This document shows, piece after piece, positions 13,198 through 51,664 of a stretch of DNA of 64,000 nt (position 1 is the first letter of the stretch; each line of letters starts with the position of its first letter). The stretch is from a virus. The stretch lies in the IMG/VR virus record IMGVR_UViG_3300044675_001501, positions 64,001 to 128,000 of that record, one strand, 5' to 3'. The notes beneath the pieces were generated by a model. That model did no database searches. It had not been told where the DNA came from and worked only from the letters and a program-made list of their open reading frames with translations. A program made the position numbers and the translations under genes.

Positions 13198-15870
13198 TTA
13201 TGAAGCGAATCCTAATGCTTTACGAGCAGCTAAGTGTTCTGGAGAACCTTTCGCTGGTGGATTTTCTGGAATATAAACGAAAGTCCCAATCGGGGAAATT
13301 CTTCCATGATAGTTCATAGTAAAGTGTTGCTTTCTATTTCCAGTATATTTAAATGAAACATGAATCCAAACAGTAGTCTTACCATCATACTCAAGAAGCA
13401 GCTGATCATAAGGAATAACCTTAGAAATAGCAACGCATGCTTCATACATTTGTTTTCTATTAAATCCATTAATAACAAAGTCTGCGGCTTGTCCAGATGT
13501 ATGCTGTGATTTTTCGTTTTTATAATCAGGAGGCAAATCTCCTGGTCTTCTGAAGCCACTCGTGATATTAATTCCTGGATACAATTTACGAATTGGCTCA
13601 AGACAATTTTCAGCTAAACCTTTAAGATTACAAGCGATTTCTTGAACAGAAAGACCTTGCTGTGGTTGTAATGGTCTTGTTCCATCTTTCGTTAATACAC
13701 CAAGTGTAAAGTTTGGAGATAACTTCATAGTAGCTGGAAAAGAACTCATTCCAAAAATAGCATCGCAATTAGCACCCTTTGGCTGAACTTTATTTGGTTC
13801 AACCTTTTCCTCGGCTAATGATCCAGGGTCTTTTTGCTGTTGCGTTGGATCAATAGCACCCTTTTCAATTTCTTTCTGAATAAACGCTTCTCTTACTGCT
13901 GGATCATCATCCTCAGTCTCATAATAGATAGCAGCTCTACTTTGTCTTGTATTAACTTGTAGAGATGTTAGTTGTGGTGCTTCTTGTGGGTCTCTACCAA
14001 TAGAACTCCCAGCTGATGCGCCAGAAGCAGCAGAAGCGCCTTGTCCGAAGTTACCACGAGAGTAATCCACATTCATTGTTGAACCAGATTTAATATTCAT
14101 TGAACTGCTGGTAGAAATATTCATTCCACCTCCAGCTTTAATATTGAACGCAGAAGTAGCTTCTAAGTTTATGTTGCTTGCTTTTACATCAAAGTTTTCA
14201 GCAACATTAAGTTTTGCATTTCCACCAACTGCAATATTAGCATCATTATATACTCTGATGTTTGCAGCGCCTTTTATGTCAATATTAGCTGCACCATCAA
14301 CTAAAACATTACCATCTCCATTGACGGTTACATTTAAAGAACCACCTAGATAAACATATCCATCACGTTCATATATCTCATAACCGTCGCCAATAATTCT
14401 ATTAACTCTAGTTCCATTGTGGTCTATCTCAGTAAATGTTCCTGATTTATGATAGAGATGTATACGCTCAGCTTTAGGAGTATCATCAAATTCAAAAATA
14501 TGACCAGACTCAGTTTCTAAAACTTTATTGAACGGATAATCTGCATTATAAGGACACTCAGATTGATCCCAGCTTTTACCACCGCCTGTTTTAACATCCT
14601 TTAATCTTTGGGTTTCTTTAGTAAACACAACAGTCTTTTCAATAAATTCATGACGTGCTAATCTATTAGTGTCTGGTTCATTAACATACAGTGGATATTT
14701 TTTGTTTGGATCTCTAAACCCATATTCTGTTGATGCTCCCGCATCAGAAGTTCCTGTCGAAGTTTGTCCGCTACTATTTTTCTCACCAACTGGTGGTGTT
14801 GGTTCAGCTTTAGTGTCTCCACTTTTTATTGCTTCTTCTTTAACTGTTTCTTCGTTTGGCGTAACAGCTTTACCTTTTCCTGGTATTCCATCTCTAAGGA
14901 ATAACTCAGATTCTTCTCTTCTTCTTCGTGTTAATCCTGCGACTTCTTTTAACACACCATCTGGACCTCGAGCTTTATTATAAGATAAAAATGCGTTAGC
15001 AGCAGCAGCATAATCTCCTCTATTAAGGTTCGTAACAATAGAAGATTTCGCAAAAGATGGACCTATGTTATAGCATAAAGATGTACATGCGTCAATCATA
15101 CTTTGTGTAACGATTGCTCTAACAGATCTAGTAACTACTGGTAAATATTCTTTCTTAACTTGATCTAAGAATAACTCCTCTGCTCTTTGATTTGAGATAA
15201 TCGTTCCTGGTTGAACTGGTTTTCCGTCAATGAATGTAGTTCCGTATCCAATAGTCCAAGGAGCACCACCTGATACTGGATCTGGGTATGCTTGAACCTG
15301 ATTATTTCCAATTTTCTTAGCAAACCCCTCACCAGTTTTAATTAGTGTTAAACCTCTTTCAGAGATTGTTGTATACTGATTAGCTGGCTTTGCGTTTCCG
15401 TGAGTATCACCACTAACAACTTGATCTTTCTCTGTTGTTTTTGGTTGCTTAGGTGGGATTTCAGTAACACCTTCCCTAACTGCGTTACCGTCTTTGTCAT
15501 GCTTAATTGTGTTTTGTTGTTCCTCAGTTCCATCACCACCAGGATCTACCAGACTTAACGTCCCCTCGTCTTCTTCAATAGACCCTTCTTTCTGCGGAAT
15601 ACCACCAAGAGTTCCCATAATAATTGGAAACTGGGTATCATCATCTTGAAAAGCAACTACAACCCACGTCCCCTCAACTGGTCCAACTGGAGTATGACCA
15701 ATACCAGAAATTGCAGCAGAATTAAGTGGCTGCATTGGCATAGCCCAAGGCAAATCTGTAGTAGGTAAAACTGCTTTAACTTCTGTATGAATGCCAACAA
15801 CTCGAACCTTACAACGTCCGAGTTTTAAAGGATCCATTCTATCTTCAACAACACCTGTGTATAATCTCAT
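13198..15870 (-). CDS. gp5: Baseplate hub spike gp5 with GH24 lysozyme and C-terminal M15 peptidase domain
   Basis: 890 aa; T4 gp5 is 575 aa. Domains in order: OB fold (about 1-100, MRLYTGVVEDRMDPLKLGRC with WVVVAFQDDD); T4-type lysozyme (about 168-327) with the catalytic pattern Glu181 in TGEGF, Asp197 in YPDP and the TIGYGTT motif at 206; a beta-helix (about 440-605) with repeated GAANI/GGN strands; then an added domain (about 705-870). The added domain has SGFRRPGD, SQHTSGQAADF (His790, Asp797) and WIHVSF (His837), the zinc ligands and signature of M15 D-Ala-D-Ala or L-Ala-D-Glu peptidases. The protein therefore carries glycosidase and peptidase activities for cell-wall penetration. The M15 part is absent from T4 gp5. 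Confidence 0.9.
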   Translation of the reverse strand: MRLYTGVVEDRMDPLKLGRCKVRVVGIHTEVKAVLPTTDLPWAMPMQPLNSAAISGIGHTPVGPVEGTWVVVAFQDDDTQFPIIMGTLGGIPQKEGSIEEDEGTLSLVDPGGDGTEEQQNTIKHDKDGNAVREGVTEIPPKQPKTTEKDQVVSGDTHGNAKPANQYTTISERGLTLIKTGEGFAKKIGNNQVQAYPDPVSGGAPWTIGYGTTFIDGKPVQPGTIISNQRAEELFLDQVKKEYLPVVTRSVRAIVTQSMIDACTSLCYNIGPSFAKSSIVTNLNRGDYAAAANAFLSYNKARGPDGVLKEVAGLTRRRREESELFLRDGIPGKGKAVTPNEETVKEEAIKSGDTKAEPTPPVGEKNSSGQTSTGTSDAGASTEYGFRDPNKKYPLYVNEPDTNRLARHEFIEKTVVFTKETQRLKDVKTGGGKSWDQSECPYNADYPFNKVLETESGHIFEFDDTPKAERIHLYHKSGTFTEIDHNGTRVNRIIGDGYEIYERDGYVYLGGSLNVTVNGDGNVLVDGAANIDIKGAANIRVYNDANIAVGGNAKLNVAENFDVKASNINLEATSAFNIKAGGGMNISTSSSMNIKSGSTMNVDYSRGNFGQGASAASGASAGSSIGRDPQEAPQLTSLQVNTRQSRAAIYYETEDDDPAVREAFIQKEIEKGAIDPTQQQKDPGSLAEEKVEPNKVQPKGANCDAIFGMSSFPATMKLSPNFTLGVLTKDGTRPLQPQQGLSVQEIACNLKGLAENCLEPIRKLYPGINITSGFRRPGDLPPDYKNEKSQHTSGQAADFVINGFNRKQMYEACVAISKVIPYDQLLLEYDGKTTVWIHVSFKYTGNRKQHFTMNYHGRISPIGTFVYIPENPPAKGSPEHLAARKALGFAS

Positions 15871-20681: not shown

Positions 20682-21092
20682 GTGAACGATACATTATCTA
20701 AAGTGTTTGATTTGGAACCAGCTAACCCCAACAACGAAATCATAACAAATGATGGAGAGATTCTTCCACTAGATACTGCTGTTGAGGATGACTTCAACAC
20801 TAGCAGGAAAAATCTAAGAGAACTTCTAGAGCAGGGTCAAACTGCTCTTATGCATGCTCTAGACGTAGCTCGTCAATCAGAACATCCACGTGCGTTTGAA
20901 GTCGTTGGAAATTTGATGAAGCAACTAGCGGATGTCAATCAACAACTAATGGATCTACACCAACAGAAGAAAAAGTTGGAAGAGCCAGGAAAAGAATCTA
21001 AAGAAAAACCAAAAACAGTAAACAATAATCTATTTGTTGGTACTACAGCTGACTTGAATAAATTATTAAAAGATATGACTAAAGGAGAATAA
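20682..21092 (+). CDS. gp16: Small terminase subunit gp16
   Basis: 136 aa; T4 gp16 is 164 aa. Small terminase forms rings that recognise DNA and stimulate the gp17 packaging motor. The helical core (FNTSRKNLRELLEQGQTALMHALDVARQSEHPRAFEVVGNLMKQLADVNQQLMDLHQQKKKL) matches the oligomerisation coiled coil of gp16, followed by a charged tail. The large terminase is not in this window. Confidence 0.85.
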   Translation: MNDTLSKVFDLEPANPNNEIITNDGEILPLDTAVEDDFNTSRKNLRELLEQGQTALMHALDVARQSEHPRAFEVVGNLMKQLADVNQQLMDLHQQKKKLEEPGKESKEKPKTVNNNLFVGTTADLNKLLKDMTKGE

Positions 21093-21094
21093 TA

Positions 21095-21808
21095 ATGGCT
21101 TTACCTATGCAGAAAACACCAGTATATAAAATGGTGGTTCCTTCAATCAACAAAGAAGTTACGTATAGACCTTTCCTAGTTAAAGAACAAAAAGCGCTAC
21201 TGCTGGCTCAGCAAAGCGAAGAGCAACAAACAATGATAACAACTCTGACCTCTGTGTTACAGAGTTGTGTTCAAGAACAAATCGATATTGAAAAACTTGC
21301 GATATTCGATTTAGAATACATGTTCTCACAGATCCGTGCAAAGTCTGTTGGGGAAGTAGTAGAACTCGTATTGAGATGTGATACTTGCTCGGACGAGAAG
21401 GCAAAGGTTAAAGTATCAGTAAACTTAGCAGAACTAAAAGTTGAAAAGCCTAAAGATCATAACAGTAACATTAGACTATTTGAAGATGTTGGTGTTATAA
21501 TGAAATACCCAAGGTTAGATATTATGGAGACAATTCAGAAACTTGAGAGTGGTGATATCGACTCAGTATTTAAGATTATGTGTGAGTGTATTGACGTAAT
21601 CTATGCTGGGGAAGAAGTTCATCATACTCACGAATATTCTAAAAAAGAATTGATCGAGTTCCTAGAGAATTTAACAGAAGACCAGTTTAAGAGAATTCAG
21701 AACTTTTTTGAAACTATGCCTAAACTGGAAAAGAAACTAGACTATACCTGCCCAGTCTGCTCGAAAGATCAATCTGTAGTAGTTTCAGGAATAGATAGTT
21801 TTTTTTAA
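21095..21808 (+). CDS. gp26: Baseplate hub/tail assembly protein gp26, zero-frame product
   Basis: 237 aa; T4 gp26 is 208 aa. Two CxxC pairs (CDTC near residue 92, CPVC near 222) could form a split zinc site. The start (KTPVYKMVVPSINKEVTYRPFLVKEQKALLLA) is the conserved gp26 N-terminus. It lies immediately upstream of the tape measure, where other tailed phages encode their frameshifted tail assembly chaperone. The gene ends GIDSFF on an eight-T run directly before the TAA stop (see the frameshift site). Confidence 0.85.
   Translation: MALPMQKTPVYKMVVPSINKEVTYRPFLVKEQKALLLAQQSEEQQTMITTLTSVLQSCVQEQIDIEKLAIFDLEYMFSQIRAKSVGEVVELVLRCDTCSDEKAKVKVSVNLAELKVEKPKDHNSNIRLFEDVGVIMKYPRLDIMETIQKLESGDIDSVFKIMCECIDVIYAGEEVHHTHEYSKKELIEFLENLTEDQFKRIQNFFETMPKLEKKLDYTCPVCSKDQSVVVSGIDSFF
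21799..21805 (+). promoter_or_regulatory. Candidate programmed -1 ribosomal frameshift site at the end of gp26
   Basis: The last codons of gp26 are AGT TTT TTT TAA, which gives the ideal slippery heptamer T-TTT-TTT in the zero frame, with the stop as the next codon. A -1 slip continues with TTA at 21805 and stays open to the TAA at 21991-21993, adding about 63 residues. This is the arrangement of lambda G/GT tail chaperones. Confidence 0.7.
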
Positions 21809-21846
21809 TTAACCTTTGCCACGATAATTTGCACAATTATTACAAG

Positions 21847-21993
21847 ATGAATTTTGCATTAATGCAATACCATAAATATAGTTTATCTGAGTTGGAGGAA
21901 ATGCTACCGTTTGAAAGAGAAATCTATATCGCTATGTTGGTGCAGTACCTAGAAGAAGAAAAAATGAGACAACAACAGGCAAAAAATGGCTAA
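21847..21993 (+). CDS. Small tail-assembly ORF downstream of gp26 (gp51-like or frameshift extension)
   Basis: 48 aa from ATG 21847. It contains YSLSELEEMLPFEREIYIAM followed by a charged helix, the pattern of the 'T' segment of tail assembly chaperones (a short helix-rich domain with a PFE-type motif). The frame is open upstream back to the poly-T slip site, so it may be made as a C-terminal extension of gp26, as a separate protein, or both. No strong Shine-Dalgarno is seen before the ATG. It overlaps the tape-measure start by 8 bp. Confidence 0.75.
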   Translation: MNFALMQYHKYSLSELEEMLPFEREIYIAMLVQYLEEEKMRQQQAKNG

Positions 21994-23995
21994 AGCTGCT
22001 ATAATTAGATTGTCAGAATACAGAGATAGAGTCCAGGCTGCTGGTGGCGCTGGTGGATCAGGCACTGGTGGGTTAGATGCCGAAAGAGTAGCCAAAGACT
22101 CGATCGAAGTTGAGAAGAAAAGTCTAACCTCTACCGAAATCTTAAACAAGAGTATCTTAGACCTCGCTAAGTTAATTAAAGAACAAAATAAACTTGGTAG
22201 AATTACTGACAAGGCATCAGGAACTAAGTTTTACGGTGGCGCTGGTGGTGCTGTTAAAGAGCGAGTTGAAAACATCAAAGAGTTCTTTACTCTTAGAGGA
22301 TTCCTAGATAAAACAGGAATCGTTCAAAAAGGTAGCACTGGTTTCTTCGGTGGCATAGCAGATAAAGCTCTCGAGAAGAGAGAAGCAAAACAGCAATATG
22401 TCAAAGACATGATGAAGACTGACCCAACAGTTAGACTGATGGGTCCAGAAAAAGCAAAAGAAGTTTTCGAAAAGAGATTTGACAAATCTCAAAAGGCTGG
22501 TCTAGATCTACAAGAAAATGAGAAAGAACTAAACAGGCTAAAATCTTCTGGTCTAACTGAAGATCAGATTAAACGCTCCCCAGAATACAAAAAGAAAGCT
22601 GAGTTAGAAGCAACTCTAGCAAAAGTTGACCCACGCTTTAGAGGTAAGGACACAATTGCTGATGCGAGCGCAAAGACAAGTAAAGGTGGATCAAACGTCA
22701 TCCCATTAAGAGATGCTGTGTCAAGCGAAGCAGCAGATTCGTCGTTCACTAGTGAAGAGGAAGCCGAAAATCTAAGATTAATGGATGAGCAAACTCAACT
22801 ACTAAGAAAGATTGAAGAGAACACTAGAAGTAAGTTTGGACCAAAAGCTGAACCAGAAGAACCAAAAGAGGGTGGTGGTCTTTTTGATTTGTTTGGTGGA
22901 AAGTTTTTAATGAAGTTTGCTAAGAAACTTGGTGGTTCGCTACTGCGTGGTCTAGGAAGTTTAGCGTCAATGATTGGTGAAGGTATTATGGCTGCTGGTA
23001 GATTCCTATTAAATCCAGCATTCTTAGGTAAACTTGTAACTAGAATCTTCCCAATTGCTTTAATAGTTGGTGGTTTAGTTAATGGTCTATGGGATGGTAT
23101 CAAAACTTGGCTTGATGGTGGCTCATTAGGCGACGCCATCATTGCTGGTCTTGGTGGAATTTTAGAGTTCATATCATTTGGCTTATTTGATGCAGAAACC
23201 ATTAAGAATATGGTTGATTCCTTTACTGGTTTCGTTAGCAAGTATATTACAGAACCAATAGGAAACTTCTTTAAGAATATTAAAGATTCTGTTGTTGGTT
23301 TCTTTCAGAATGTTGGTATTCCAGAAATTAGTTTTGATCTTGGCTTTAAGAAAGTAACATTCGGTCCATGGTATCCATTTAAACCAGATGACAAACCTAA
23401 AACTCCAGAAACTCCAACAGCGCCAAATCAAGGAGTCAAAGTTGGCGAAGATGGTAAGACGCAAGTAGCAACTCAACCAGTTGATGGAAATAAAGCAAAG
23501 GTATATGGCGACACTTACGAAGCAGCAAGATCTGAAGGTAAAAGTGTAAAGGATTCAAAAGCAGCTGCTGAAACGGCAAGCAAAAACTTAGTTTCTAGAT
23601 CACAGACTCTAATTGCTAATGAACCTGTAGTTCCAGGGCAACCATTATCTGATAAACAGATGGGTGTTATGGAGATGTCGATGTCGATGGGTAACAAATA
23701 CCCACCTGAAATTATGGAACAATACAATAAACAGAAGAAATCTAAAATTTCTGGTTCAGATGCTAGTAAAGTTGAAGCAGTTAAACCAGCTGTTAAATCT
23801 GCAAAGGCAACTGATGTTTATAGGGATTCTGCTAATGTTCAAGCAGCAAAAGAGCAACCGAAAGCAGTTAACAACACAGTTGTTGCTCCACAGACAAATG
23901 TGAACAACACTTCTCAACCAATTGCCGCATACTATGGTCCAAAGAACACAGATACGACAATGAACGATTATGTTCGAAGACGTGGAGTTGGTTAA
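21986..23995 (+). CDS. gp29: Tape measure protein / hub subunit gp29
   Basis: 669 aa; T4 gp29 is 590 aa and sets tail length. The N-terminal half is charged and coiled-coil-prone (SIEVEKKSLTSTEILNKSIL, repeated KAEL/KEVFEKRF). A hydrophobic Gly-rich stretch at about 345-405 (FPIALIVGGLVNGLWDG, IIAGLGGILEFISFGLF) is typical of tape measures that enter the inner membrane on ejection. The C-terminus is Ala/Lys/Pro-rich. It starts inside the upstream small ORF, so translation is coupled to the chaperone. Confidence 0.85.
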   Translation: MAKAAIIRLSEYRDRVQAAGGAGGSGTGGLDAERVAKDSIEVEKKSLTSTEILNKSILDLAKLIKEQNKLGRITDKASGTKFYGGAGGAVKERVENIKEFFTLRGFLDKTGIVQKGSTGFFGGIADKALEKREAKQQYVKDMMKTDPTVRLMGPEKAKEVFEKRFDKSQKAGLDLQENEKELNRLKSSGLTEDQIKRSPEYKKKAELEATLAKVDPRFRGKDTIADASAKTSKGGSNVIPLRDAVSSEAADSSFTSEEEAENLRLMDEQTQLLRKIEENTRSKFGPKAEPEEPKEGGGLFDLFGGKFLMKFAKKLGGSLLRGLGSLASMIGEGIMAAGRFLLNPAFLGKLVTRIFPIALIVGGLVNGLWDGIKTWLDGGSLGDAIIAGLGGILEFISFGLFDAETIKNMVDSFTGFVSKYITEPIGNFFKNIKDSVVGFFQNVGIPEISFDLGFKKVTFGPWYPFKPDDKPKTPETPTAPNQGVKVGEDGKTQVATQPVDGNKAKVYGDTYEAARSEGKSVKDSKAAAETASKNLVSRSQTLIANEPVVPGQPLSDKQMGVMEMSMSMGNKYPPEIMEQYNKQKKSKISGSDASKVEAVKPAVKSAKATDVYRDSANVQAAKEQPKAVNNTVVAPQTNVNNTSQPIAAYYGPKNTDTTMNDYVRRRGVG

Positions 23996-50909: not shown

Positions 50910-51034
50910 TTCGATGTTTCCTTCATAACTTGTTGCATCTTAACAACACCATGGTCAGCAATCTTTGCTATGCCAGCGAAGCCAACAGTACACACAGCGA
51001 CACCAAGAATAAACCCAACAATCAAATTACCCAT
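50906..51034 (-). CDS. Tiny membrane protein
   Basis: 42 aa from ATG 51034 (GTGAGGCTGACA upstream). Transmembrane helix MGNLIVGFILGVAVCTVGFA. Confidence 0.65.
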   Translation of the reverse strand: MGNLIVGFILGVAVCTVGFAGIAKIADHGVVKMQQVMKETSK

Positions 51035-51428
51035 TGTCAGCCTCACAAAAGTTTTCAAAGTCTTCAACATTACCAGCGAACAAAACATTACCACTGTAAT
51101 CTTTTACCTTCACTTCGATACCTTTGTCAACGCAAGCACGAACGTAGTATTCATAATCTTGCCAAGCATCAGTGGTAGTAATTGGATATACATAGATACC
51201 ACCGACACCATCTTTAAGTTTGGCAATCAGTTGAGCAGCCAAGCAACCAGCACCATTTGCTATTTTAGCTGGTCCATTGCTAGGAATACCATTGACGATA
51301 GTCATGTTCTTTAGGAAAAAAGCAAGTTCAGAACCATGACCAGATGGGTAACCATCAAACTGTCGATAGATACAAACAAGTTTCTCACCGACACCATTCT
51401 CAACATAAGTCAAACAACGTGTACCCAT
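51027..51428 (-). CDS. Conserved phage protein
   Basis: 133 aa from ATG 51428. MGTRCLTYVENGVGEKLVCIYRQFDGYPSGHGSELAFFL is a conserved start in phage and bacterial unknown proteins. No activity known. Confidence 0.8.
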   Translation of the reverse strand: MGTRCLTYVENGVGEKLVCIYRQFDGYPSGHGSELAFFLKNMTIVNGIPSNGPAKIANGAGCLAAQLIAKLKDGVGGIYVYPITTTDAWQDYEYYVRACVDKGIEVKVKDYSGNVLFAGNVEDFENFCEADNG

Positions 51429-51430
51429 AA

Positions 51431-51664
51431 TCAACCCCAATCTTTCTTATCACCAAACTTTTCGTTGTACTCATATCCAGCCATGTACTCAACAATCTGT
51501 TCTGGGGTCATATCTTTACCCTCTACACGTTCAGACTGAGAAGTTGCGCCGACGTAGTAGTGAATATCGATACCACGACCATAGTAAGAATCAGCCGAAC
51601 CACGATCGAATGGACCACCGTGGCGAGTGTCGTATAGTTTGCCATTATAAAATCCGTACATCAT
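51431..51664 (-). CDS. Conserved small phage protein
   Basis: 77 aa. GFYNGKLYDTRHGGPFDRGSADSYYGRG with MTPEQIVEYMAGYEYN is common in phages. Unknown. Confidence 0.75.
   Translation of the reverse strand: MMYGFYNGKLYDTRHGGPFDRGSADSYYGRGIDIHYYVGATSQSERVEGKDMTPEQIVEYMAGYEYNEKFGDKKDWG

Follow-up and report, generated by a model that had tools for sequence, protein, structure and literature searches.

Organization of the gp26 locus

The window analysed here is the whole 64,000-nt stretch from position 64001 to 128000 of a virus record 169,497 bases long, in which T4-like genes are present. The features of the gp26 region are:

20682-21092, plus strand: terminase small subunit (gp16-like; PHROG 445, 8.5e-39; Pfam DNA_Packaging, 1.9e-8), the upstream neighbour, for context only
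21095-21808, plus strand: gp26-like gene, 237 aa, putative short tail assembly chaperone (gpG-like product)
21787-21790, plus strand: SD-like AGGA (weak), 8 nt before the heptamer, duplex energy -4.3 kcal/mol
21799-21805, plus strand: slippery heptamer T_TTT_TTT, by direct reading, in frame at the gp26 3' end
21805-21993, plus strand: -1-frame extension, 62 aa plus a stop at 21991-21993; joined to gp26 it would give a gpGT-like product
21986-23995, plus strand: putative tape measure protein, 669 aa, by position, length and a hydrophobic segment

Read directly, the gp26-like gene ends AGT TTT TTT TAA, to the base as originally noted: the heptamer lies within a run of eight T (21799-21806) and is followed immediately by the stop TAA (21806-21808). 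No stop interrupts the -1 frame before that at 21991-21993, again as first noted, and the fusion of gp26 and extension would have 299 aa; the putative tape measure ORF, from its ATG at 21986, overlaps the end of the extension, stop included, by 8 nt. Poly-T is under-represented in this DNA (7 matches to TTTTTTT over the 64 kb, versus 41 expected from dinucleotide shuffles). Window ORFs of at least 100 aa contain just two in-frame heptamers of the form T_TTT_TT(T/C/A), and only that of gp26 is near a stop. The second, T_TTT_TTC at 51321 in a minus-strand ORF of 137 aa (51027-51440), lies 95 codons before its stop and is probably incidental.

Elsewhere in the window (13198-15870, minus strand) is a gp5-like hub lysozyme consisting of an OB domain and a phage lysozyme. 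Its C-terminus weakly matches M15-type peptidases, and the protein may combine two cell-wall enzymes.

Assignment of the two parts and of the putative tape measure ORF

The window gp26 matches both Pfam T4_baseplate (PF12322; 4.4e-60, residues 9-237) and PHROG 150 (6.9e-64) over its full length, and PF12322 is matched by 37 of 37 relatives. The match to Pfam Phage_TAC_12 (E 0.046) is below the cut-off. For the extension, the matches are to PHROG 634, "baseplate hub assembly catalyst" (gp51), over the C-terminal half of that profile (4.8e-25), and to the C-terminal end of PHROG 150 (2.3e-5). The PFE-type motif that had been noted in it is real, reading PFER in the window and PFER or PWER among relatives.

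Structure models were obtained for the window gp26 (mean pLDDT 85.8) and for a T4-type gp51 (mean pLDDT 84.4), in which the extension corresponds to three helices (206-221, 226-230, and 234-248). The highest-probability match of the gp26 model in a fold search of the PDB is the HK97 tail assembly chaperone (2OB9; probability 0.57, rmsd 3.3 over 59 columns), but with an E value of 1.5 this modelled likeness is suggestive only. The gp51 model had no match in the PDB fold search, and a sequence search found no related solved structures.

The 669-aa ORF is putatively assigned as the tape measure protein from its position and character; its sequence could not be matched reliably to T4 gp29. Homologues are found at the same place in most relatives.

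Conservation of the heptamer and of the -1 phase

Relatives of gp26 are found in 661 phage records, and relatives of the extension in 567. Alignment across T4-like phages had been proposed as a test of whether heptamer and phase are conserved, and both are: all 156 IMG/VR loci where both parts were found have the extension in -1 phase, and an in-frame T_TTT_TT(T/C/A) is present at the gp26 3' end at 176 of 178 gp26-family loci, a set that includes alpha- and betaproteobacterial phages. (Heptamer-to-stop distances of 25 or more in the 178-locus alignment are mostly an artefact of alignments that overran the stop.) Of the 68 representatives left by clustering at 80% identity, 66 have the heptamer. 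In every one of these the first Phe codon is TTT, and the codon preceding the Phe-Phe pair ends in T (AGT, GAT, TCT, AAT, GCT, or GGT). Other Phe-Phe pairs in the same genes are encoded as T_TTT_TTY in just 2 of 72 cases (Fisher p ~8e-35 versus the junction), and the naive log10 probability of the heptamer codon choice, given the X-F-F residues, is -33; these values are nominal, since lineages were treated as independent.

Heptamer carriers include Kyanoviridae, several genera of Straboviridae (nt-1, Aer65.2, AS-zj, and AsFcp_1), and phages of Sinorhizobium, Rhizobium, Agrobacterium, Caulobacter, Stenotrophomonas, Acidovorax, Delftia, and Pelagibacter; a variant in a Rhizobium phage has T_TTT_TTA, with the stop nine codons further on. 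Heptamer-bearing loci range from 33% to 60% GC. A poly-T run would not be expected from composition at the loci of ACP17 (60% GC), PhiW-14 and V45v66 (both 56%), or YB07 (54%), because of their high GC content. Homopolymers are error-prone, and the junction might in principle be an assembly error, or a chance poly-T between two unrelated genes. The same junction is, however, found in independent isolates and in metagenomes, down to 24-35% gp26 identity, which already refutes this reading and leaves its probability negligible.

A second alternative is transcriptional slippage, in which an added base in the eight-T run would bring the extension into frame in part of the mRNA. The eight T of the window, and of members in which a stop codon follows TTTTTTT, are consistent with this. 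But 40 of the 66 representatives have TTTTTTC, with a run of only six T, in the same phase and position, and the site conserves T_TTT_TTY, the layout for tandem slippage, not the longest possible run. Slippage at the level of transcription accordingly seems very improbable.

It is also unlikely, if somewhat less so, that the extension is a separate small gene (the annotated gp51), with its own start or with reinitiation coupled to the gp26 stop. GenBank records do annotate it in this way, starting at internal ATG codons, and the stop-ATG overlaps found in some lineages (TAATG or TGATG) would also yield a -1 phase. One argument against it is the position of the possible starts: the first ATG in the window, at 21847, lies 14 residues into the conserved region and has no strong SD sequence, and among representatives the first ATG can be anywhere from codon 3 to codon 34. 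The residues before it are conserved, as is the heptamer; the consensus, F-F-(R/L)-I-x-L-x-H-x-x-L-x-N-Y-Y, begins straight from the slip site and in many members lies ahead of any ATG, evidence against an independent start. A separate gene would also leave unexplained the rarity of T_TTT_TTY at other Phe-Phe pairs.

Ribosomal slippage, by comparison, is very probable: as judged from the sequence, gp26 of this phage is a chaperone gene decoded in two ways by -1 slippage at the poly-T. The conserved phase and heptamer support the original proposal of a frameshifted tail chaperone in this lineage. Most ribosomes would terminate at the TAA at 21806, producing the 237-aa short form. A minority would shift back one base on U_UUU_UUU, the tRNA-Phe in the P and A sites re-pairing with UUU UUU, and would go on to produce the 299-aa long form, whose 62 added residues are predicted to be a small helical domain. 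On the model of lambda gpG and gpGT, coating of the tape measure protein would fall to the short form, and recruitment of the tube or baseplate-tube protein to the long form. The sequence and phase at the junction, their conservation, and the homology to T4 gp26 and gp51 are observed; that slippage takes place in vivo, how often it does so, and what each form binds are inferred.

Possible stimulatory elements

Two kinds of element accompany the heptamer in the family. Upstream, SD-like motifs are found in 46 of the 66 representatives, versus 27.7 expected under synonymous recoding. In many members a GGAGG or GAGGG begins 14-15 nt before the heptamer, with the motif end mostly 9-11 nt away, and at the SD-like codon GAG is favoured over GAA (31 of 48, versus 28% elsewhere; p ~1e-7). 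Downstream, the RNA is predicted to fold more stably than synonymous recodings (mean z -1.55, with z below -2 in 28 of 66 representatives; for gene-body control windows the mean is -0.38, with 12% below -2). The spacer between heptamer and fold is most often 5 nt, while the stems themselves differ among lineages (P-SSM2, S-WAM1, and L011). For the window itself, Rfam returned only sub-threshold chance matches. Across the family, heptamer type was not associated with hairpin strength (p 0.51). Long stems of ~9-12 bp, starting 5 nt 3' of the slippery site and with lineage-specific sequences, are seen at four loci (L190, L194, L058, and L011).

Neither element is clear in the window. The duplex energy of its AGGA is weaker than the mean of -7.1 kcal/mol over the 66 representatives, and stimulation by this motif in this phage is uncertain; the RNA downstream of the heptamer shows no excess stability over shuffles (z -0.09). 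The slip may depend on the eight U and the adjacent stop, or else on some further element that escaped detection. Given the weak SD-like motif and the lack of a stable downstream fold, the slippage rate could be low.

Relatives lacking the heptamer

The two of the 178 loci without a heptamer are those of Cygsa01 and D528 (L165 and L168); K475 (L205), looked at separately, likewise lacks it. Homologues that keep the ORF while losing the slippery run or changing phase had been named beforehand as evidence against frameshifting, and the first kind does exist, in this small PhiW-14-like group; a change of phase was not seen: in all three the extension is still in the -1 phase, and the junction has a TAATG overlap. 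For these phages, with the heptamer gone, expression of the extension as a separate coupled gene is the likely route. In the tree of gp26 cores, Cygsa01 and D528 are near PhiW-14, and PhiW-14 and YB07 carry both a heptamer and a stop-ATG overlap. The pattern suggests that frameshifting may have given way to coupled translation, and Cygsa01, D528, and K475 may represent a third way of expressing the chaperone pair.

Comparison with T4 and lambda

T4 gp26, which ends GLKEFF, is homologous to the window short form over its full length, while T4 gp51 has a gp26-like core and the same C-terminal extension, fused in frame; its C-terminus is colinear with the window FF-LINLCHDNLHNYYKMNFALMQYHKYSLSELEEMLPFEREIYIAML. 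Each of the two T4 proteins matches PF12322 across the whole profile, and gp51 additionally carries the PHROG 634 extension, so that one T4 gene is the short form and the other the long. A profile-profile comparison between gp26 of the window group and T4-type gp51 gives an E value of 7e-8. The ORF corresponding to what is annotated as gp51 in relatives of the window is the extension only, whereas full-length T4 gp51 carries its own copy of the core. In T4 the short and long forms are thus encoded by two divergent genes, 26 and 51, and a frameshift is not needed. The suggestion that the locus would unify T4-type and lambda-type tail assembly therefore stands in altered form: T4 gp26 and gp51 are truly separate genes, and the unification consists in gp51 being the in-frame long form.

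As proposed for the window, lambda gpG and gpGT are a short and a long product obtained by a -1 frameshift just before the tape measure gene, and lambda T overlaps H by 8 nt, the same length as the overlap of extension and putative tape measure ORF in the window. The slip site of the window differs from that of lambda in being at the stop codon; the slippery sequences also differ. There is no detectable sequence homology between lambda gpG and gp26.

In the gp26-core tree the frameshift group, T4-type gp26, and T4-type gp51 are separate, but the tree is unrooted and has long branches, and so neither proves nor contradicts a direction of change. The frameshift layout is probably ancestral in the gp26 family, to judge from its use by Straboviridae outside the T4-type group (nt-1, Aer65.2, AS-zj, and AsFcp_1). 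The family may have three states, a scheme for which the chances seem about even. In the first, probably ancestral, one gene would be frameshifted at T_TTT_TTY with lineage-specific stimulators, as kept even among Straboviridae (for example nt-1 and the Aeromonas Emmerichvirinae). In the second, T4-type, state the short and long forms would have become two genes. In the third, PhiW-14-like, state the heptamer would have been lost, with the extension probably a separate coupled protein.

Relation to earlier work and implications

A 2016 review describes the tail chaperone frameshift as widespread "except T4" (PMC5009743). More recent papers, both citing Vladimirov, Gautam & Davidson (2022), state that some T4-like phages do not frameshift but have a short gene plus a longer fusion gene (PMC10885494), and that poly-T runs are known to act as -1 signals in the TAC-N genes of T4-like phages (PMC12846349). 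TAC loci of the Vandenendeviridae and Andersonviridae have a conserved poly-T -1 site and a -1 frame that stays open ahead of the tape measure gene, a layout resembling that proposed for the window, although their motif is GTTTTT as opposed to the T_TTT_TTY of the gp26 family (PMC12846349). Going by the papers that cite it, the core of the present finding, the unification with T4 included, appears to have been published already (Vladimirov, Gautam & Davidson, Virology 2022; doi 10.1016/j.virol.2021.11.003). Its novelty is therefore limited; the observation is confirmed and its interpretation well supported. In the literature covered, no description was found of the near-invariant T_TTT_TTY, the two kinds of stimulator, or the heptamer-less group, all of which Vladimirov et al. 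(2022) may contain.

In several cyanophage and pelagiphage records (L162, L170, L190, L194, and others) the extension is annotated as a short "gp51" with an internal start, and it is omitted from the public records of S-WAM1, Aer65.2, AS-zj, and ACP17. Because cyanophage and related records commonly either list it as a short independent gene or omit it, the fusion protein is missing from databases.

On the comparative data, many relatives of T4 would use frameshifting to make a pair of products that T4 itself encodes as separate genes. If the scheme of three states is correct, an unfused extension would suffice.
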